A DNA stretch of 25,543 nt, from assembly GCA_945787295.1 (NCBI GenBank), contig CALZHQ010000064.1, positions 1 to 25,543 on the forward strand. Reading direction: 5' to 3'. The notes below the pieces were generated by a model, which was given only the letters and a program-made list of their open reading frames with translations, had not been told where the DNA came from and did no database searches. Shown in pieces: positions 1,408-22,208 of this stretch. The stretch comes from an uncultured Desulfuromonadales bacterium. Its GTDB lineage: Bacteria; Desulfobacterota; Desulfuromonadia; Desulfuromonadales; Geopsychrobacteraceae. Positions within the stretch are counted from its first letter, which is position 1. Each line of letters begins with the position of its first letter. Both the position numbers and the translations under genes were made by a program.

Positions 1408-2454
1408 TTACCCTACTAGCTGAAGGCGTCCAGACACTTGTTCCGTGACTTCACCAATTCTGAACGCCGGCACTTTCTGCTCAGTTAAACGCCTGACCAG
1501 CAGATCCGTTTTTTGCGCCGAAACTGCCATCAACAAACCGCCCGAAGTCTGCGGATCACTCAGCAGATCGAGGTGGAATTGTTCACAACCCTGCTGGCCA
1601 TCAACCCGCGAGAAATAATAATCTCGATTCCGATAAGAGCCTTCCGGGATCAAGCCGATTTCTGCCATCTCAGCTGCGCGCGGATAGGCCGGCAAGCTCG
1701 GCGCGTTGATCCGCAGACCAACAACACTCGCCTCGGCAAGCTCAACGGCGTGCCCAATTAGGCCGAACCCGGTGATATCGGTGCAGGCCGAAACCCCCAC
1801 ATCTACCATCACCTCGGCCGCAGTTTGATTGAGCATGATCATGCCCTCAACGGCTACGCTGATCTCCTCCTCCGTCAAGACTTCACCTTTGAGCGCCGTC
1901 GCCAATATGCCCGTCCCAAGCGGCTTTGTCAGGATCAACTGATCGCCGGGCTGGCAACCGCAGGTCGAAAGCATCTTACGCGGATCGACCATCCCGGTCA
2001 CACTCAGACCGTACTTCGGCTCATCATCCTCGATCGAATGCCCCCCGACGATCAAAGCCCCGGCCTGCTGGACCCGTTCCGCGCCACCCTGCAGGATCCG
2101 CAACAGGACATCCGGTCCGAGCTGACAGAGCGGAAAGGCGACGATATTCATGGCGGTCAACGGCTTGGCGCCGATGGCGAAAATATCGGACAGAGAATTG
2201 GCGGCGGCAATCTGACCGTACTTATAGGGATCATCCACCACCGGGGTGAAGAAATCGACCGATTGCACCAGCGCCTGCGAATCGTTAATTCGATAGATGG
2301 CGGCATCGGCGAACGGGATCTCCTGGGACAACAGATCAGGATGATCCACTTTAGGGAGCTGACCCAGTACCTGGGCCAGGGTCTCGGGACCGATCTTGGC
2401 AGCTCAACCGGAGCTACGTGACAGAGCGGTCAGACGGAGACGTTTGTCCGTCAT
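1408..2454 (-). CDS. selD: Selenide, water dikinase SelD, selenocysteine-containing (Sec17, TGA at 2404-2406)
   Basis: SelD makes selenophosphate from selenide and ATP, the selenium donor for Sec-tRNA synthesis. An ATG at 2454-2452, seven to nine bases after a GAGGAGA ribosome site, begins MTDKRLRLTALSRSSG. A TGA then follows, and the frame continues AAKIGPETL through the whole SelD fold to the TAA at 1408-1410. Read through, the protein is 348 residues, the family's usual length. The TGA is residue 17 and Lys is residue 20, matching Cys17 and Lys20 of E. coli SelD, so the TGA encodes catalytic selenocysteine rather than a stop. A conventional gene caller would start at an internal codon (2349) and lose the active site. 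It is the last gene of selA-selB-selD, 73 bases after selB. Making SelD depend on Sec insertion allows selenium-dependent feedback. Confidence 0.95.
2361..2400 (-). promoter_or_regulatory. Candidate bacterial SECIS element in selD mRNA
   Basis: Bacterial Sec insertion needs a hairpin just 3' of the UGA that SelB binds. Two alternative hairpins can be drawn by eye. The first, nucleotides 7-32 counted from the U of UGA, has GCCA/UGGC and GGUC/GACC stems and a CCGA loop. The second, nucleotides 24-46, has a GACCC/GGGUC stem and an apical loop containing GGU. The first is at the better distance from the UGA and carries a GGUC like the E. coli fdhF element, although there it sits in the loop. Which one forms was not computed. 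Confidence 0.4.
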
Positions 2455-2527
2455 AGAAGCTTTCTCCTCAGCATGCGCATTAATTTCGGAACAGCCCAAA
2501 GGGGCCGGGCAAATAGCCAGTAGCAAA

Positions 2528-4435
2528 TCACTTTGGCAAATTCCAGGCGACCCGCTCTTCACCAGTGCGCCGTGTGTACTTGCAAGCGTCGAAATACTCA
2601 AGCAGAGCCTGAATCAGCTTGCGGTTACTATCGAGCCGATCGCGAAACTGGGCCAGGGTAAAAGAAGTCTGCTGCTGGAAAATCTCGAGTAACACCTGCT
2701 GTGCCCGCTGAAAACTATCATTATGCAAATAGCTTTCCTGGTTCAAACGAATTAGTGATTTTTCCTGCACCAGATAAGAAAAATACAGTTCAATATCGAC
2801 GCCATCAAGGCCAAGTTGATTGATCACTTCATTCTGGTTCTTGACCTGAAAACCGACTTGACGATAGTGGCTTTCGAGCTTGGTCAGCACCTGCAGTTCA
2901 GCTTCGGTCGGTTGCGGTTGCCAGCCCGGGGTCAGCACCAGATCCCCGGAAAGAGCCAGATCGCCACTGTCAACGACCCGCTGCAGCAATACCTCGAACC
3001 CCTTCGGGGCCAGTTTCTCAGCCAACTTGGTCTGCAGTGTCGCCCGCGGGATCCCGTGCCGCAAACGGTTCCGCTGTAAATAATCTGTGACCAGTTGCGG
3101 TAGCTGCTGTCGCCAGCTGCGAACCCGCTCAGTGACCACCCACTGGTCTGCGAGTTCTTCCACCTGTCCCATTTCGGCCAGCTTTTCCAGCCCCTGGCGC
3201 AATTCTTCGCGCCCGGTCCCGGTCTGCTTTTCCAGGTCGCGCAAGCGGGCGATCTCCAGTTCATCCAGCTTCTGCAACCAGAAACCCAGGTTTCCGGCAG
3301 AGAGCTCGGTCAGTCGCTTGATGACCTCCGGCCGGAAACGCTTGTGCTTGAGCGGCTCAACATCGATAACCTTGCCACCGCCGATGGTGAGCATCGGCGA
3401 ATAAGAGCGAACGATGAAGCGATCGCCACGATTGGAAAGCAGCGGCTGATCAAACGTCAACTGCACAAAGGCTTCTTCACCGGGAGCCAGTTCGTTACGA
3501 TCGAGCAGAATTGCCCGCGCCACGGTCCGGGCCGTACCGAGATGAAAATGGAGCGGATCGCGAAATTTAACCGGTCGCGGTGCATCTTTAAGCAGTTGCA
3601 AACGGACATCGATCCGCTGACTGGCGCGAAACAGACCGGCGGTGCCGACCACTGAGCCATGCGGCACCTGTTCCCGGGCGATCCCGGAAAGGTTCAGCGC
3701 TACGCGCTGTCCGGCCAGAGCTTCAGCGGCCTGCTCCCCATGCACCTGAACCTCTCGGATCCGCGCGTCAACCCCGGCTGGCAACAGCTCCAAACTGTCG
3801 CCAGGCCGAATCCGGCCACTATTGAGCGTACCGGTCACCACCGTACCGAAACCACTGATCGTGAAGCAGCGATCGACCGGCAAGCGCACGGCCCCGGTTA
3901 TTTCACGGGCCGGAACCTGCTTAAGTTGCTCGCGGATCGTCGCCAGCAGACCATCAAGACCGTCACCGGTGAGGGATGACACCCGGCAGCAGGGTGCCTG
4001 ATCGAGAAAGGTTCCGGACACCTGTTCGCGAACTTCTTCTTCGACGATATCGAGCCAGTCCGGCTCGACCAGATCACACTTGGAAAGCACGAGGATGCCA
4101 CGTTTGAGCTGCAGCAGCTGCATGATCTGCAAATGCTCGCGGGTCTGTGGCATCACCCCTTCGTTGGCATCGACAACCAGCAGCACCAGGTCGATACCGG
4201 CGATGCCGCTGAGCATCTGTGGAATGAATTTTTCGTGACCGGGGACATCGACCACCCCGGCCATCTGCCCGTTGCCCAGATCGAGCCTGGCAAAGCCAAG
4301 CTCGATAGAGATACCCCGTTTTTTCTCTTCCGCCAGCCGGTCAGTCTCGGTTCCGGTCAGCGCTCCGATCAGGGCCGTCTTGCCGTGATCAACGTGACCG
4401 GCCGTACCGATGATAAAATGCCCCTGTCCAGACAC
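2528..4435 (-). CDS. selB: Selenocysteine-specific elongation factor SelB
   Basis: SelB is a GTPase that delivers Sec-tRNA to ribosomes paused at UGA codons next to a SECIS hairpin. The 635-residue protein has the EF-Tu-like G domain: P-loop GHVDHGKT at residues 13-20, DVPGH at 63-67 and SKCD at 118-121. Domains II and III follow (FGTVVTGTL region onward). About 260 C-terminal residues correspond to the tandem winged-helix region that binds SECIS RNA. The length is normal. The GTG start at 4435-4433 lies three bases after the selA stop, with its ribosome site (GGCGAGG) inside the selA end, which implies translational coupling. The substrate within the window is the selD UGA. Confidence 0.96.
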   Translation of the reverse strand: MSGQGHFIIGTAGHVDHGKTALIGALTGTETDRLAEEKKRGISIELGFARLDLGNGQMAGVVDVPGHEKFIPQMLSGIAGIDLVLLVVDANEGVMPQTREHLQIMQLLQLKRGILVLSKCDLVEPDWLDIVEEEVREQVSGTFLDQAPCCRVSSLTGDGLDGLLATIREQLKQVPAREITGAVRLPVDRCFTISGFGTVVTGTLNSGRIRPGDSLELLPAGVDARIREVQVHGEQAAEALAGQRVALNLSGIAREQVPHGSVVGTAGLFRASQRIDVRLQLLKDAPRPVKFRDPLHFHLGTARTVARAILLDRNELAPGEEAFVQLTFDQPLLSNRGDRFIVRSYSPMLTIGGGKVIDVEPLKHKRFRPEVIKRLTELSAGNLGFWLQKLDELEIARLRDLEKQTGTGREELRQGLEKLAEMGQVEELADQWVVTERVRSWRQQLPQLVTDYLQRNRLRHGIPRATLQTKLAEKLAPKGFEVLLQRVVDSGDLALSGDLVLTPGWQPQPTEAELQVLTKLESHYRQVGFQVKNQNEVINQLGLDGVDIELYFSYLVQEKSLIRLNQESYLHNDSFQRAQQVLLEIFQQQTSFTLAQFRDRLDSNRKLIQALLEYFDACKYTRRTGEERVAWNLPK

Positions 4436-4438
4436 CGG

Positions 4439-5851
4439 TTAGACCTCGCCACGGATAGCGGCAATCAGTAATTGCGTCAGCAATGCCTGCTCATCGTCAC
4501 TGACAGCACGCAAATTGATCAATAAAGAGTCATTCTGCACCCGTGGCACCAGCGCGGGAATAAAACGACGCAAGCGACGGGCCAGGGTATCGACCGTAAG
4601 GTTGCTGGGATTGATTTCCAGCGCCCAGCCAGGTAATTGGACCTGCGGCATCGACCCACCACCAACCTGGGCAAAATCTTCCACCAGTGTCAGCTTGATC
4701 GGCAGGGCTTCCGCAGCCAAACGATCCAGTAACAGCTGGCAACGCTGCTTTTCATCCTCCGGCCTGACATTGAACATCCGCATGATCGGCAGTCGCTCTA
4801 CAACCTGGTCCGGTTGCAGGTAGAGGCGCAACGTACTCTCCAGTGCTGCCAGGGTCAGTTTATCGATCCGCAACGCCCGCGCCAGCGGATGGCGGCCAAT
4901 TTTCTTGACAAACTCTTTCTTGCCAACGATCAGTCCGGCTTGTGGTCCCCCGAGTAACTTGTCGCCACTGAAGGTGACCACGTCGACCCCGGCCTTGACC
5001 GTCTCGGCGACAGTCGGCTCATACGGCAGACCGTACTGAGTCAGATCGCAGAGCATCCCGCTGCCAAGATCCTCCATCAGGATCAAATCTTTTTCGCGCG
5101 CCAATGGCAACAGCTCTGCCGCAGAAACGGCACTGGTAAAGCCGATAATTCGATAATTGCTGGTGTGAACCTTGAGCAGGATCCTGGTCTCTTCGCTAAT
5201 CGCGTTTTCATAATCACGCAGATGGGTCCGGTTCGATGCCCCGACCTCGCGCAGTTTCAAGCCCCCCGCCTCCATCACCTCGGGAATCCGGAATGCGCCA
5301 CCGATTTCAACCAGTTCACCACGGGAGACGATCGCTTCGTAGCCCTTACCGAGGGCGGTCAAAGCCAGCAGGACTGCACCGGCATTATTGTTGACCACCA
5401 AGGCCGCTTCTGCGCCGGTCAACTGGGTCAACAAGTGTTCGACATGGCTGTAACGTTCACCACGCTGACCGGTACTCATATCGATTTCCAGAGTGGAATA
5501 GCCTTCGGCTACCGACTGGATCGCCTGCAATGCCTCTTGAGCCAGCGGCGCCCGGCCCAGGTTGGTATGCAATAATGTCCCTGTCGCGTTAATAACTTTC
5601 CGTAAAGACGGTTTCAGATAAGGCTGACAGAGCCCAGCAGCAACCATCGCCACCTGTTCGGGTTGCAAAGACCGCTCGGCCGGCACCGCTTCACCGTCCA
5701 GCAACTGACGGCGCAAATCAGCGACAGCCTGCTGCGCAGCCGCCGTCAGAACCTCTTGTGGCAATCGGCTTTCCAGGCTCTGCAGCACCTCCTCACGCAG
5801 AACCCGGTCAATTGCTGGAAGTGCTCGCAACAACTCTTGCTGCCCACTCAT
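4439..5851 (-). CDS. selA: L-seryl-tRNA(Sec) selenium transferase SelA
   Basis: SelA is a PLP enzyme that converts Ser-tRNA(Sec) to Sec-tRNA(Sec) with selenophosphate. The 470-residue protein shows the family signatures NATGTLLHTNLGRAPL (residues 88-103) and TFSGDKLLGGPQAG, with the PLP-binding lysine at residue 298 (Lys295 in E. coli). The frame is open further upstream to 5929. The ATG at 5851 was chosen because it follows GAGGGTG at the right distance and gives MSGQQELLRALP, the normal SelA N terminus. It is first in the selA-selB-selD operon. The tRNA(Sec) gene selC is not in this window. Confidence 0.95.
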   Translation of the reverse strand: MSGQQELLRALPAIDRVLREEVLQSLESRLPQEVLTAAAQQAVADLRRQLLDGEAVPAERSLQPEQVAMVAAGLCQPYLKPSLRKVINATGTLLHTNLGRAPLAQEALQAIQSVAEGYSTLEIDMSTGQRGERYSHVEHLLTQLTGAEAALVVNNNAGAVLLALTALGKGYEAIVSRGELVEIGGAFRIPEVMEAGGLKLREVGASNRTHLRDYENAISEETRILLKVHTSNYRIIGFTSAVSAAELLPLAREKDLILMEDLGSGMLCDLTQYGLPYEPTVAETVKAGVDVVTFSGDKLLGGPQAGLIVGKKEFVKKIGRHPLARALRIDKLTLAALESTLRLYLQPDQVVERLPIMRMFNVRPEDEKQRCQLLLDRLAAEALPIKLTLVEDFAQVGGGSMPQVQLPGWALEINPSNLTVDTLARRLRRFIPALVPRVQNDSLLINLRAVSDDEQALLTQLLIAAIRGEV

Positions 5852-9201: not shown

Positions 9202-9276
9202 GCCGAAGTGGTGGAATTGGTAGACACGTCGGTCTCAAAAACCGATGCCCTCCGGGCGTGCCGGTTCGATTCCGGC
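9202..9276 (+). tRNA. tRNA-Leu(CAA) body lacking the 3' acceptor strand and CCA; probably defective
   Basis: The 5' acceptor strand GCCGAAG, the D arm, the anticodon arm (stem TCGGT/ACCGA, loop CTCAAAA, anticodon CAA), a long class II variable arm (GCCC/GGGC) and the T arm (GCCGG-TTCGATT-CCGGC) are all intact and leucine-like. After the T stem the expected CTTCGGC-A-CCA is absent: the next seven bases are AAAGAAA, which cannot pair with GCCGAAG. The sequence passes directly into the terminator hairpin, as if about 11 bases had been deleted. The rest of the unit, including a consensus promoter, looks maintained. It is either a recent pseudogene, a sequence error, or an RNA with another use. 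Confidence 0.8.
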
Positions 9277-15527: not shown

Positions 15528-16535
15528 TTACTTCCCGAAGCAAACCCCGCGCCACCACGGCGGTGGCATTTCGTCAACCTTACCACGCAGCCCTGGTTTC
15601 CGGGCCTCTTTGTTACAGAAATCGGTGCGGAAGCGGTCGGCGAAGATCTGGTGCACTTTCGTGGTCGGGTGTACCGTGTCCCAGAACAGGTAGGTATCTG
15701 GATCGTTACAGGACGTGTTGTCGGGCATCAGGCAGGACTCGGTGACATTCACCAGGCCGTAGTCCGCCGGCGAGGCGACAAGATCGTTCACAACCTGATA
15801 GGAGTCGAACACATTAATCGTCTCCGCACATGCGTCCGGCAATCCGGCGAGGGCCTGTTCCAGGCCGGCATTGAACAGCATGACCGCTTGGGAAACCTGG
15901 GTCTGCGTGTCCGTGTCAAAACCCAGCACGAACGGCGTCAGGCTGAGATCGGGCAGGTTTCCGACCATGAAATGCCTCCCCCCGGCCGTCCCCAGCCGGC
16001 ACACAGCCTCGGTAATATTGGCCACAGCCTGGGTCAGAATGCTCTGCATCGCCTCCGGCTGCATCATGCCGAGGAACATGTCGTTCGGCCCGGCCCAGAC
16101 CACGTAGAGGGCCTTCGGGTTCAGCCCGTTGGGGTTGGCGGCCAGCAACGCATCGATCTCCTCGGGGACACCGGGCAGGGGGTCCGGAAAAAATTGGGGA
16201 TACTGCACGTTGTTGAAGTTGGAGAGTGGTGTCCCGCCAATGATGTAGGTCCCGGTAAACGCCCCGCCGTAAGACAGGCTGTCGACATCGACAGCCAGTT
16301 CGGTGGCCAGGTACTCAGGCCACACCGGTCCGTTGCTGAAGCGCTCCGCATAGGGTGGACTCGGTGGCCAGAACCCGGTCAACTCGTAGAAATTCCCTGT
16401 GTCCGACAGGCTGTCTCCGATGATATAGACGTCGTTGGCCGGATTACCGGCAAGCGACGTCCCGGTCGCAGCAACCAGCAACAATAAGCCGCAAAACAAC
16501 CCCAATTGAAACAATCTGCTCACGATCCCCTTCAT
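15528..16535 (-). CDS. Secreted GDSL (SGNH) lipase/esterase
   Basis: 335 residues. A signal peptide (about residues 1-29, MKGIVSRLFQLGLFCGLLLL then VAATGTSLAG) sends it out of the cytoplasm. Block I is GDSLSDTGNF with nucleophile Ser42, block III is WAGPNDMF with the oxyanion Asn, and block V is DTVHPTTKVH with Asp286 and His289, so all catalytic elements are present. The family hydrolyses ester bonds of lipids, acyl sugars or other substrates; the substrate cannot be read from sequence. No autotransporter domain follows. The ATG at 16535 follows GGAGG by six bases and gives the signal peptide; the frame is open further upstream through the leader, so longer starts are rejected. A c-di-GMP-type riboswitch lies in its ~215-base leader. 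Confidence 0.9.
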   Translation of the reverse strand: MKGIVSRLFQLGLFCGLLLLVAATGTSLAGNPANDVYIIGDSLSDTGNFYELTGFWPPSPPYAERFSNGPVWPEYLATELAVDVDSLSYGGAFTGTYIIGGTPLSNFNNVQYPQFFPDPLPGVPEEIDALLAANPNGLNPKALYVVWAGPNDMFLGMMQPEAMQSILTQAVANITEAVCRLGTAGGRHFMVGNLPDLSLTPFVLGFDTDTQTQVSQAVMLFNAGLEQALAGLPDACAETINVFDSYQVVNDLVASPADYGLVNVTESCLMPDNTSCNDPDTYLFWDTVHPTTKVHQIFADRFRTDFCNKEARKPGLRGKVDEMPPPWWRGVCFGK

Positions 16536-16578
16536 AACAACCTCCTTGCCTCCCAGTACCTGAGTATTCGAGTGCTTC

Positions 16579-16651
16579 CAAAAAAACACCGGCAAAGCAG
16601 GGCTTCCACCTGCTGCAGGCAATGTAGATAAAATGCAAACAGCCGGGCTGC
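16579..16651 (-). terminator. Possible riboswitch expression platform (terminator/antiterminator)
   Basis: On the minus strand, a U7 run (16586-16580) follows GCCGG (16593-16589). GCCGG can pair with CCGGC (16646-16642), enclosing an inner AGCAGG/CCTGCT hairpin (16614-16596), to give a terminator. The same CCGGC is the end of GCAGCCCGGC, which can instead pair over 10 bp (one G-U) with GCTGGGCTGC at the 3' edge of the aptamer. The two foldings exclude each other. Drawn by eye, with no energies computed. Confidence 0.4.
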
Positions 16652-16663
16652 CACATGCTCCAA

Positions 16664-16752
16664 GCGCAGCCCAGCCGTCTTAACATGGTCCGAAGTAAGA
16701 CCCGCGGCTTTCCGTCCCAACTTCGCAGCTGGTTTGGCATTATCCAATGATT
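16664..16752 (-). promoter_or_regulatory. GEMM / cyclic-di-GMP-I type riboswitch aptamer
   Basis: Reading the minus strand from about 16750, all core blocks of the class occur in order: AATGCCAAACC; a P2 stem CCAGCT/AGTTGG with a GCGA (GNRA) loop; GGGACGGAAAGCC; CGGGTCTTA...TAAGAC as the P3 stem; and GGCTGGGCTGC at the 3' side. In Vibrio Vc2 numbering A18, G20, A47 and the 3' C92 are retained. The usual G21 and C46, which I recall as pairing with each other, are exchanged for C21 and G46, a compensatory swap. G20 favours c-di-GMP over the cAMP-GMP (A20) variants known in Geobacter, but the ligand is inferred. A convincing P1 helix was not found by eye. Confidence 0.82.
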
Positions 16753-16761
16753 AATTTACAG

Positions 16762-16789
16762 AGTGTAACATGCCGGGATGCAAAGGCAA
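16762..16789 (-). promoter_or_regulatory. Candidate promoter of the riboswitch-esterase unit
   Basis: On the minus strand TTGCCT (16789-16784) and TACACT (16767-16762) are 16 bases apart. The -10 is extended by TG (TGTTACACT). Transcription would start near 16755, just before the aptamer, as is typical for riboswitches. Confidence 0.5.
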
Positions 16790-17097
16790 CTTGGCGAGGT
16801 CGCTGTAGAATGGGCTGTGCCGCGGTAGGGTCTGCTGAAACTTTTTAGGAATATTCCTGTACTGGGTCTTGTCTTGAATATCGTGAATTAATCTCACAAG
16901 CCCAGACTGAACCGCCACTCGCCGACTAGACATTTTCAAGTTTCACAAGTCGTGAGTATTCTATTTTGATACTCATCATTTTAAGGCTCTTGGCTCCTGC
17001 TGAGAGTCTTGTTTGATCTGTTGTCTACTGATCAGAAAGTTGTCAGTATGATCTGCTAGTATGCTCCTCGGTACAACATGTAACGAGGGGGATACCT
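16790..17097 (+). other. Non-coding divergent region between the esterase unit and the NifU-like gene
   Basis: About 300 AT-rich bases. A short minus-strand reading frame (16939-16751) has no convincing ribosome site or protein-like composition. An extended -10-like TGCTAGTAT lies near 17054-17062, about 40 bases before the NifU-like gene, without a well-spaced -35. Nothing else is recognised. Confidence 0.35.
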
Positions 17098-19842: not shown

Positions 19843-21294
19843 TTAACAGAGTCGCAGCTGACCATCATCGTCAGCATATTCGGCATCTTCCCAATCGGCA
19901 ACCGGGACCGGTTCTGCCGGAGCGGTCGGCACTGCAATCCCCTGCTCTTCCGGCGGACGTTGCGTAAAGCGAGCGACCACCGGATTCTCTTCATCGACCG
20001 TCTGCATTCCGGCTTCAGCAGCCCGCTTGGCCAGTTTGTCACAGCGTTCGTTAAATGGATGCCCGGCATGGCCGCGCACCCATTGCCATTCAACGTCATG
20101 TTGACGCGAAAGGACCGCCAGCTGCTGCCAGAGATCCTGATTTTTGAGCGCGCCCGGCTCTTCCAGTCGTCCCTTACGGATCCAGCCGTGAAGCCATTCG
20201 TTCATCCCGCGGACCAGATACTGGGAATCGCTGAAAACGCGGACCCGGCTGCGGCTATTCAGAGCTTCCAACCCCTTGATTGCCGCGATAAGCTCCATCC
20301 GCTGCGAGGTAGAAACCGGTTCAAAGCCGCTTAATTCCTTTTCGTGCTCGCCGTAGCGCAGTACCACGCCATAGCCCCCGGGTCCAGAGTCTCTGCCCGA
20401 GCCATCGCTGTACAGTTCGACCACACCTGCCTCCGGCGGGGTAAAAGCAATCTCCAGCCCCTCAAATTCGAGCTCACGAAGCAGTGGGATCAAGGTCGAC
20501 AGGTTCGGCGGCTGACACTTCAGATCGGCAAGCTCAACGTCCAGCGGCACGTCATAGCGAACGGTCGCCAGTTTTTTCGAGAGCCGCGCCTGGTCGACAT
20601 AAGTCTTTAAATTATCCCGCCGCTTCTTGCCGTTGACCAAACTTTGCCACTTGAAGACCCCTTCGAGAGAATCGAACTGTTTGATCAGCTCGGCAGCGGT
20701 TTTCTCGCCGATGCCGGGAACCCCTGGAATATTATCCGAAGTATCGCCAGCCAAACCGAGCAGATCCGGCACCAGTTCTGGGCCGACACCGAAGCGCTCA
20801 AGCACCTCTTGCGGACCGGAACGTTTGTCTTTCATGGTATCGAGCAAGTTGATCCGCCCAGTGACAATCTGCAACAAATCCTTGTCGCCGGTGACAACCG
20901 TCACCTCGAGTCCGTCAGCAGCGTGCTGACGGGCCAAAGTCGCAATCAGGTCATCAGCCTCGAAGCCGGGAGCGTCCAGGGCAGGAATATTGAGGGCCTG
21001 CACCAGCTGCTTGATGTAAGTAATCTGCAACACCAGATCCTCGGGCATCTCTTCCCGGTTCGCCTTGTATGCAGGATAGATTTCGCGCCGAAAGGTCTCT
21101 TCACGGGGGCGATCAAAGACCACGGCCAGGTAATCGGGGCGATTCTCCCGCAGCAGGTCGAGCAGCATCCGGGTGAAACCGAAGATGGCATTGGTCGGCA
21201 TCCCGCCAGTGGTGGCGAGATCGCGAATACCGTAATAGGCGCGATAGATGTAACTGGAACCATCCAGTAAACAAAGCTGTGGTGATGATTTCAC
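19843..21294 (-). CDS. Fusion protein: PolA-type 5'-3' exonuclease + RNase HI
   Basis: 483 residues, one uninterrupted frame. Residues ~1-285 are a complete PolA N-terminal 5'-nuclease without polymerase: Asp11 in LLDGSS, Asp61 in VFDRP, FEADD at 111-115, TGDKD at 135-139, GDTSDNIPG at 183-191 and the DNA-binding GVPGIGEKTA at 191-200. Residues ~292-430 are a complete RNase HI: Asp297 (YSDGSG), Glu334 (RMELIAA), Asp356 (FSDSQY), His409 (RGHAGH) and Asp419 (NERCDKLA). The last ~50 residues are acidic and disordered. Both activities act on RNA primers and flaps of Okazaki fragments, so a primer-removal role is the natural inference. It is followed by the GNAT gene and divergent from a second RNase H-fold gene. 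Confidence 0.92.
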   Translation of the reverse strand: MKSSPQLCLLDGSSYIYRAYYGIRDLATTGGMPTNAIFGFTRMLLDLLRENRPDYLAVVFDRPREETFRREIYPAYKANREEMPEDLVLQITYIKQLVQALNIPALDAPGFEADDLIATLARQHAADGLEVTVVTGDKDLLQIVTGRINLLDTMKDKRSGPQEVLERFGVGPELVPDLLGLAGDTSDNIPGVPGIGEKTAAELIKQFDSLEGVFKWQSLVNGKKRRDNLKTYVDQARLSKKLATVRYDVPLDVELADLKCQPPNLSTLIPLLRELEFEGLEIAFTPPEAGVVELYSDGSGRDSGPGGYGVVLRYGEHEKELSGFEPVSTSQRMELIAAIKGLEALNSRSRVRVFSDSQYLVRGMNEWLHGWIRKGRLEEPGALKNQDLWQQLAVLSRQHDVEWQWVRGHAGHPFNERCDKLAKRAAEAGMQTVDEENPVVARFTQRPPEEQGIAVPTAPAEPVPVADWEDAEYADDDGQLRLC

Positions 21295-21483: not shown

Positions 21484-21708
21484 ATGAGTGAACAACAGAA
21501 TAATGATCCGCTGCACGGCATCACCCTGGAGCAGATCGTCACCAGCCTGGTCGACTATTACGGCTGGGAAGAATTGGGCGAACAGATCGACATCAGGTGC
21601 TTCAACAACGAACCCTCAGTAAAATCGAGCCTCAAATTCCTGCGTAGAACTCCTTGGGCAAGAAAGCAGGTCGAAGATCTGTACCTCGCGGTAAAAAGGA
21701 TCGGTTAG
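21484..21708 (+). CDS. VF530-family (DUF2132) small DNA-binding protein
   Basis: 74 residues. [33 protein letters not shown] and [20 protein letters not shown] match the VF530 family almost throughout; family members are reported to bind double-stranded DNA, with an unknown cellular role. It is full length. Its stop at 21706-21708 lies two bases before the TTG start of the next gene, indicating an operon with the RNase H-fold gene. It is divergent from the exonuclease-RNase HI fusion across 189 bases. Confidence 0.88.
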
Positions 21709-21710
21709 TT

Positions 21711-22208
21711 TTGAATGAACTGATCCTCCTCACTGATGGCAGCGTGGACAACCAGTCCAAGGTCGGCTACGGAGCCTACCTGCTGGTGACTGACGCGAGA
21801 CTTTCATCGCCGCAGCTGAAGGCGCACGTCAAGCTGCAGCGCTTTGAGCAGACCTCTTCGAGCAAGCTTGAGTTACAGACGCTGCTTTGGGCGTTAGGTG
21901 ATATTCTACCCTTGGGGTGCAATCTGACTGTCTATACAGATTCGCAAAACATTATCGGTCTGCCGGGCAGACGTGAGCGGTTGGAACAGAACGATTATCG
22001 CGCCAAGAATCGACGTCGGCTTAATAACGATCAGCTCTACCGAGAATTTTTCCGCCTGAACGATCAGCTGAACTGTAAACTGTTAAAAGCCCAGGGGCAC
22101 CGGCCAGCCAAACAAAAAGAAGAGATTGACCGGCTGTTCAGTCTCGTCGATAAAGCTTCAAGAACGGCACTGCGCAACGCCCTGCAAGGGGCCAACCCTT
22201 GCTATTAA
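21711..22208 (+). CDS. Compact RNase H-fold nuclease-like protein
   Basis: 165 residues from a TTG at 21711, about ten bases after AAGGA. Upstream in-frame codons overlap VF530 and give a non-conserved basic leader. The RNase H carboxylates are all in place: Asp9 (LLTDGSV), Glu54 (SKLELQTLLWA), Asp77 (VYTDSQN) and Asp147 (LVDKASR). The GYGAYLL strand and the KAQGHRPAKQ turn, with His130, also fit. It is too diverged from RnhA to assume the same substrate, but RNA-DNA hybrid cleavage is plausible. The conserved basic-helix region is replaced by an Arg-rich segment (RRERLEQNDYRAKNRRRL). It lies between VF530 and yaeQ in a four-gene plus-strand run. Confidence 0.82.
   Translation: MNELILLTDGSVDNQSKVGYGAYLLVTDARLSSPQLKAHVKLQRFEQTSSSKLELQTLLWALGDILPLGCNLTVYTDSQNIIGLPGRRERLEQNDYRAKNRRRLNNDQLYREFFRLNDQLNCKLLKAQGHRPAKQKEEIDRLFSLVDKASRTALRNALQGANPCY

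Follow-up and report, generated by a model that had tools for sequence, protein, structure and literature searches.

Two questions are raised by this locus: which second messenger is read in the leader of an exported esterase gene, and whether that messenger switches the gene on or off. The window, the whole stretch of 25,543 nucleotides analysed here, carries a riboswitch upstream of a GDSL esterase gene on the minus strand, as the first-pass annotation had read from the sequence, and both elements were confirmed by profile searches. The gene and the aptamer are located as follows.

15528..16535, minus strand: exported GDSL esterase/lysophospholipase-like protein, 335 aa (PF00657, 1.1e-20; signal peptide by eye)
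16662..16748, minus strand: c-di-GMP-I (GEMM-I) riboswitch aptamer (RF01051, 54.9 bits, gathering score 35)
16712..16737, minus strand: P2 with the swapped outer pair C21 (16737)-G46 (16712), the next pair C22 (16736)-G45 (16713) and a GCGA loop (RF01051 alignment)
16738, minus strand: G20, the base guiding ligand selection (c-di-GMP or cGAMP), where cGAMP switches have A (alignment; according to PMC6456294 and PMC9262584)
16666, minus strand: C92, ligand-pairing base and also part of the edge terminator (alignment; C75 in PMC6274999 and PMC9262584)

The 335-aa protein scored 75.1 bits against PF00657 (GDSL lipase, Pfam cut-off 23.6), and GDSLSD, GPND and DTVH motifs together with an N-terminal signal peptide were recognised by eye. 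The closest solved structures by sequence were lysophospholipase A 8a24 (1.2e-28) and ChoE 6uqv (5.7e-24). PlaA and ChoE, GDSL lysophospholipases/esterases, are the best solved relatives within the family, but with a score of 145.4 the protein remains below the NCBIfam PlaA cut-off, which is 450, so that it is no PlaA orthologue by that test. A literature search, with most subscription papers outside its coverage, gave no paper combining "c-di-GMP riboswitch" with "GDSL". Eight loci were found by a homologue scan of genome contigs. Two of them have a riboswitch before the same GDSL gene: L001 of an uncultured Desulfuromonadales bacterium, with a protein 93% identical in amino acids over 335 residues, and L002 of a member of Desulfuromonadaceae, 72% identical over the 218 residues on its contig. 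In the remaining six (Oculatella, Burkholderia and Legionella; 27-39% identity) no c-di-GMP riboswitch reached the gathering cut-off.

Several other features were noticed in the window. A selD-like gene (1408-2526, minus strand), located beside selB and selA, is interrupted in frame by a TGA codon where the active-site residue is expected (RSSGUAAK), and therefore its product is probably itself a selenoprotein. A tRNA-Leu-like remnant (9202-9276, plus strand) matched only positions 8-63 of the Rfam model with 35.4 bits and was not called by ARAGORN; its 3' acceptor side appears by eye to be replaced. A 483-aa protein (19843-21294, minus strand) is composed of a Pol I-type 5'-3' exonuclease (PF02739, PF01367) fused to RNase H (PF00075), and the ORF at 21654-22208 is RNase H-like by eye too.

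The minus-strand aptamer, which had been taken for a GEMM-type riboswitch, was recovered at 16748-16662 by the RF01051 covariance model well above the curated cut-off (E 2.3e-8 for the whole window), and the GNRA cap noticed on P2 is a GCGA loop in the alignment. According to this alignment G20 is at 16738, C21 at 16737, C22 at 16736, G45 at 16713, G46 at 16712, A47 at 16711 and C92 at 16666, and the pocket bases expected for c-di-GMP-I (G20, A47 and C92) are all present. A second family of the same clan, c-di-GMP-I-GGC (RF03167), whose name we take to refer to G47, was rejected for the window aptamer because of a score of 53.4 bits under its gathering score of 59 and A47 instead of the consensus G47. 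Both L002 aptamers exceed the RF03167 cut-off, as do matches in 111 of the 136 genomes of L001's order, where riboswitches of the clan are abundant.

The first-pass annotation had drawn attention to the C21/G46 swap as a change that keeps the base pair and is hard to explain by chance. The pair is indeed kept in the RF01051 alignment and the swap is nonrandom, but it is widespread in the order and common descent accounts for it. The swapped pattern GCCAWACC...GGACGGAAAGC had 65 matches, spread over 43 of the order's 136 genomes, and the reversed control pattern had one; on these counts the idea of a one-off compensatory event was rejected, and the swap is no special trait of the window copy. 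The usual form, searched strictly as GGCAAACC...GGACGCAAAGC, occurred 32 times in 25 of the 136 genomes, the two search patterns being not quite equally strict.

The swap was also already known structurally, since C15-G40, the pair that opens P2 in the Geobacter 3',3'-cGAMP riboswitch 4YAZ, maps onto C21-G46. Position 20 corresponds to A14, A47 to A41 and C92 to C75 of that structure, as these bases are given in PMC6274999. The window matches 4YAZ at the C15-G40 pair, A41 and C75, and differs from it in having G20 instead of A14. Of the 277 genomes searched from the class, 170 had A20 forms, and outside the order 72 of 76 A20 sites among the matches listed read ACUAAACC with GGAAAGC, which means that they have C21-G46 too. 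If C21-G46 is taken as a trait of cGAMP (GEMM-Ib) switches, as a feature of 4YAZ and of these 72 of 76 listed A20 sites and not as a published definition, the trait is present in the window. C21-G46 is the mark of a scaffold common to Geobacter cGAMP switches and no repair peculiar to the window copy.

The other base by which cGAMP switches are recognised, A at position 20, is replaced by G (16738) in the window, so c-di-GMP is predicted over cGAMP, and we infer c-di-GMP as the ligand. The predicted pocket is thus of c-di-GMP type (G20, A47 and C92) on a Geobacter cGAMP scaffold. An engineered counterpart is the A20G variant of Gmet_0970, in which selectivity moved from cGAMP to c-di-GMP according to PMC6456294; it resembles the window in a c-di-GMP-selective G20 on a GEMM-Ib aptamer, the likeness being drawn on base 20 and not on the 21/46 pair. 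For D. acetoxidans, PMC9481103 describes two aptamers preferring c-di-GMP by in-line probing and a homologue with an altered pocket and increased c-AMP-GMP affinity, and these natural aptamers agree with the ligand predicted from G20.

Ser at the Hypr signature position (taken from PMC6456294) was detected in three of the 50 readable GGDEF domains among 65, namely L255 and L256 in genome G001 and L258 in genome G002, and these are possible cGAMP synthases in both relatives. G002 also has two A20 aptamers, L014 (by eye) and L015; the strict A20 pattern had no match in G001 and G002 and was too narrow, as these two show, and the idea of relatives devoid of cGAMP switches was dropped. Considering the Hypr-like domains and the A20 aptamers, cGAMP may be present too, and such cells possibly signal with both messengers. 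It is nevertheless unlikely that 3',3'-cGAMP, or both dinucleotides, is the ligand at this locus, a reading that overlaps with the ON switch proposed below. The match of C21-G46 to the crystallised cGAMP switch (PMC6274999), the Hypr-like domains of both relatives, the OmcST switch reported as responsive to both ligands (PMC6456294) and the description of position 20 as a selectivity factor instead of a hard filter (PMC9262584) would suit it, but the window has G20, A20G alone shifts Gmet_0970 to c-di-GMP (PMC6456294), and C22-G45 stands, as we map it, where pilM has a U-G pair (PMC9262584).

The direction of regulation depends on the structures downstream of the aptamer, and these are given here with the other elements of the leader.

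16762..16789, minus strand: sigma-70-like promoter, TTGCCT (16789-16784), 16 nt, TACACT (16767-16762) (block conserved in the window, L001 and L002; start site inferred)
16640..16677, minus strand: edge terminator hairpin, the aptamer 3' edge 16677-16666 paired to 16651-16640 (folding energy; shuffle test)
16630..16639, minus strand: imperfect U run UUUGCAUUUU after the edge terminator (UUUGCRUUUU in the window, L001 and L002)
16580..16620, minus strand: second hairpin with U7 (16586-16580), the terminator of the first-pass annotation (folding; leader alignment)
16541..16547, minus strand: Shine-Dalgarno AAGGAGG (sequence; kept in the window, L001 and L002)

The alignment of the three leaders conserves the TTGCCT...TGTTACACT block, the aptamer, the edge partner GTGGCAGYCCGGCTG and UUUGCRUUUU. 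A promoter had been placed just upstream of the aptamer; a strict consensus scan of 16450-16900 returned none, but TTGCCT/16 nt/TACACT is kept in both relatives, and a promoter at 16789-16762 is plausible. The edge hairpin has 12 outer pairs and -24.5 kcal/mol in the window, -24.5 kcal/mol with one mismatch in L001 and -31.4 kcal/mol in L002, and in each of the three the edge pairing was matched by at most 2 of 100 shuffled downstream sequences. The U7 hairpin is poorly kept, with 28 nt gone in L001 and a degenerate form reading GGCCGGTGTGTTTT in L002, and was therefore rejected as a conserved terminator.

These 28 nt (16607-16580), which hold most of the U7 hairpin, are flanked by GGAAGC direct repeats in the window and have no counterpart in L001; a small insertion or deletion thus distinguishes the leaders of these close relatives. 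L002 contains two swapped G20 aptamers back to back (4134-4211, minus strand, and 4363-4449, plus strand), which precede the GDSL gene and a divergent gene for a putative lipoprotein of 942 aa, whose FG-GAP match stays under the Pfam cut-off; unlike L002, the window showed no second aptamer in the Rfam scan.

We hold with fair confidence that the leader is a transcriptional c-di-GMP-I riboswitch that turns the GDSL gene on. Without ligand, the aptamer 3' edge would pair downstream, and the resulting terminator would end transcription ahead of the GDSL gene; binding of c-di-GMP would keep the edge in P3 and the pocket, so that no terminator could form and the exported esterase would be made. 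At the sequence level this is based on the aptamer, the G20/A47/C92 pocket and a downstream strand complementary to the 3' edge including C92. Both loci with the same gene keep the edge helix, the U run and the promoter block, but not the U7 hairpin. The first-pass annotation had the ligand stop transcription, which the comparison does not support: the terminator conserved at the three GDSL loci uses the aptamer edge, so the ligand should prevent termination, and the sign is probably to be reversed to ON.

A terminator strand pairing with the aptamer edge including C92, as present in the window, is a trait of the pilM-type ON platform. In the cGAMP-reading pilM riboswitch of Geobacter metallireducens, as described in PMC9262584, the terminator requires the aptamer strand and the ligand turns the gene on; the strand with the ligand-pairing C serves either the aptamer or the terminator, and therefore the two exclude each other. 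pilM differs from the window in that it reads cGAMP and forms P1 with ligand, while the window has G20, C22 and almost no P1. For GSU1761, the authors of PMC6456294 infer that cGAMP stabilises an antiterminator and expression is on. The Cd1 riboswitch of C. difficile (c-di-GMP, OFF) is of the same aptamer class and ligand type, but there the aptamer and terminator coexist and the ligand stops transcription, according to PMC9262584. The window riboswitch is an unexceptional representative of its established class, and its probable ON platform follows a design already described.

The window RNA, folded as far as its first U run, gave -49.5 kcal/mol when free and -30.9 kcal/mol with the aptamer enforced, both figures being ligand-free output of an energy model. 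Because the free fold is so far below the enforced one, switching would have to be kinetic; pilM was modelled cotranscriptionally in PMC9262584. Two mutually exclusive downstream pairings had been proposed. The edge stem and the U7 hairpin both exist, but the free fold of aptamer plus platform holds them together, and for CCGGC:GCCGG, which is presumably the exclusive pairing that was meant, folding of the RNA after C92 gave a probability near 0.015. When this RNA was folded alone, the stem probability of the U7 hairpin was 0.16-0.30, and a freed downstream strand may loosen it.

Some features weigh against an ON switch. The first U run is imperfect, one terminator pair is mismatched in L001, and P1 is barely formed in the window and L001 by eye, for which reason a lower affinity is expected. 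The second hairpin, with its better U run, could terminate transcription irrespective of ligand.

The platforms of related aptamers were compared across the order. The set was defined by a core-pattern match and at least 95 nt after C92, and after removal of duplicates contained 176 aptamers (106 swapped, 69 normally oriented and one mixed), with the window, L001 and L002 counted among the swapped ones and one swapped row (L144) consisting mostly of N; loci entered the set through a pattern match, through the best Rfam score or as the first of their genome, and are not a random sample. An edge terminator was called where the aptamer edge has a better pairing partner downstream of C92 than in shuffled sequence, with a U run after it. 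It was found in 77 of the 106 swapped and none of the 69 normally oriented aptamers (Fisher p 1e-25), although p values overstate the case because the sequences are related. The strict test was thus failed by 29 of 106 swapped aptamers in the order, and by 22 of 41 outside it. Among 28 genomes having both orientations, 51 of 65 swapped and 1 of 41 normal aptamers passed at a looser cut (p<=0.05).

The edge and downstream strands also covary. For 105 swapped loci with 39 distinct edges, the mean pairing with the own edge was -21.2 kcal/mol against -17.0 kcal/mol (sd 0.29) after permutation, and the gain was small in 67 normal loci (-13.4 against -13.0, sd 0.22). The window's own edge beats only 60% of foreign edges, by 0.9 kcal/mol on average, so this single case adds little. 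Outside the order, 61 aptamers from 52 loci were obtained by searching 67 of the 141 class members there, chosen with a lean to A20-rich genomes; the contrast was weaker than within the order, with edge terminators in 19 of 41 swapped aptamers and 1 of 20 normal ones (p 0.001). In the A20 ACU class outside the order only 3 of 13 passed, although the Geobacter switches of this class described in the literature are ON, and some genuine edge terminators have therefore probably escaped the test.

It is rather improbable that the leader is an OFF switch, in which the ligand would hold the edge in the aptamer, the edge stem would act only as antiterminator and the U7 hairpin would stop transcription. 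U7 is the longest U run of the leader, and free terminators with a 5' arm matching the P1 3' strand do accompany 31 of 70 normally oriented aptamers in the order, but this arrangement is rare among swapped aptamers (3 of 105; 175 rows, the mixed one counted with the 70 canonical), also outside the order (1 of 41). The U7 hairpin, moreover, falls in the 28-nt stretch that L001 does not have and survives in L002 only in degenerate form; it folds alongside the edge stem and not in place of it, and CCGGC:GCCGG is hardly formed. It is very doubtful that the leader is decaying and no longer switches, with a recognisable aptamer but P1 lost, U runs weak and regulation gone: the poor P1 of the window and L001, the imperfect U run and the loss of the U7 hairpin in L001 would fit, but the P2/P3 core and the edge helix are preserved in L002 despite 72% protein identity, and model positions 43 and 78 in P3 form a C-G pair in the window but a U-A pair in L001.

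Edge terminators were not distributed by base 20. Within the order they were found in swapped aptamers with G20 (50 of 70) and A20 (27 of 36) alike, and in no normally oriented aptamer with either base (0 of 31 and 0 of 38), and ligand class was rejected as the driver of platform type. An aptamer tree (233 rows, 82 columns) required at least 9 changes of pair orientation, at least 38 of base 20 and at least 36 of the platform call. Only three independent pairs on supported branches were available for an evolutionary test of the link between pair and platform, which is too few, and the contrast may rest on few ancestral events.

With slightly more doubt than belief, we propose that the Desulfuromonas/Geobacter class has two GEMM-I lineages distinguished by the pair at the foot of P2: C21-G46 with an edge terminator (predicted ON), and G21-C46 with, in the order and for somewhat fewer than half of the aptamers, a free terminator whose 5' arm matches the P1 3' strand (predicted OFF). 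Outside the order this OFF arrangement accompanied only 3 of 20 normally oriented aptamers, which lowers our confidence in the proposal. Both lineages include members with G and members with A at the ligand-reading base 20, which seems to have switched several times. This platform split by one base pair may be the sole new part; no title or abstract among the matches listed dealt with P2 pair orientation and regulation sign, most subscription papers being outside the coverage.

The downstream gene could be located for 87 of the 106 swapped aptamers of the order. Thirty proteins behind G20 swapped switches included, by Pfam, three transglutaminase-like proteins, two each of multiheme cytochromes, NHL propellers, PEP-CTERM proteins and isochorismatases, a zinc carboxypeptidase, a di-haem peroxidase and single others, seven being without family. 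Many target proteins of swapped switches start with a signal peptide (by eye, unscored). Four normally oriented switches (L131-L134) are headed by flagellar-hook-like proteins, also by eye.

For this organism, an ON switch would correct the likely sign: the signal should raise, not stop, production of the exported esterase. The locus also provides natural G20 switches on the C21-G46 scaffold, comparable to the engineered A20G variant. Should the two-lineage reading be true, one base pair would indicate whether a switch is ON or OFF and base 20 which ligand it reads, and c-di-GMP and cGAMP ON and OFF regulons would become predictable from genomes in a group studied for metal respiration.
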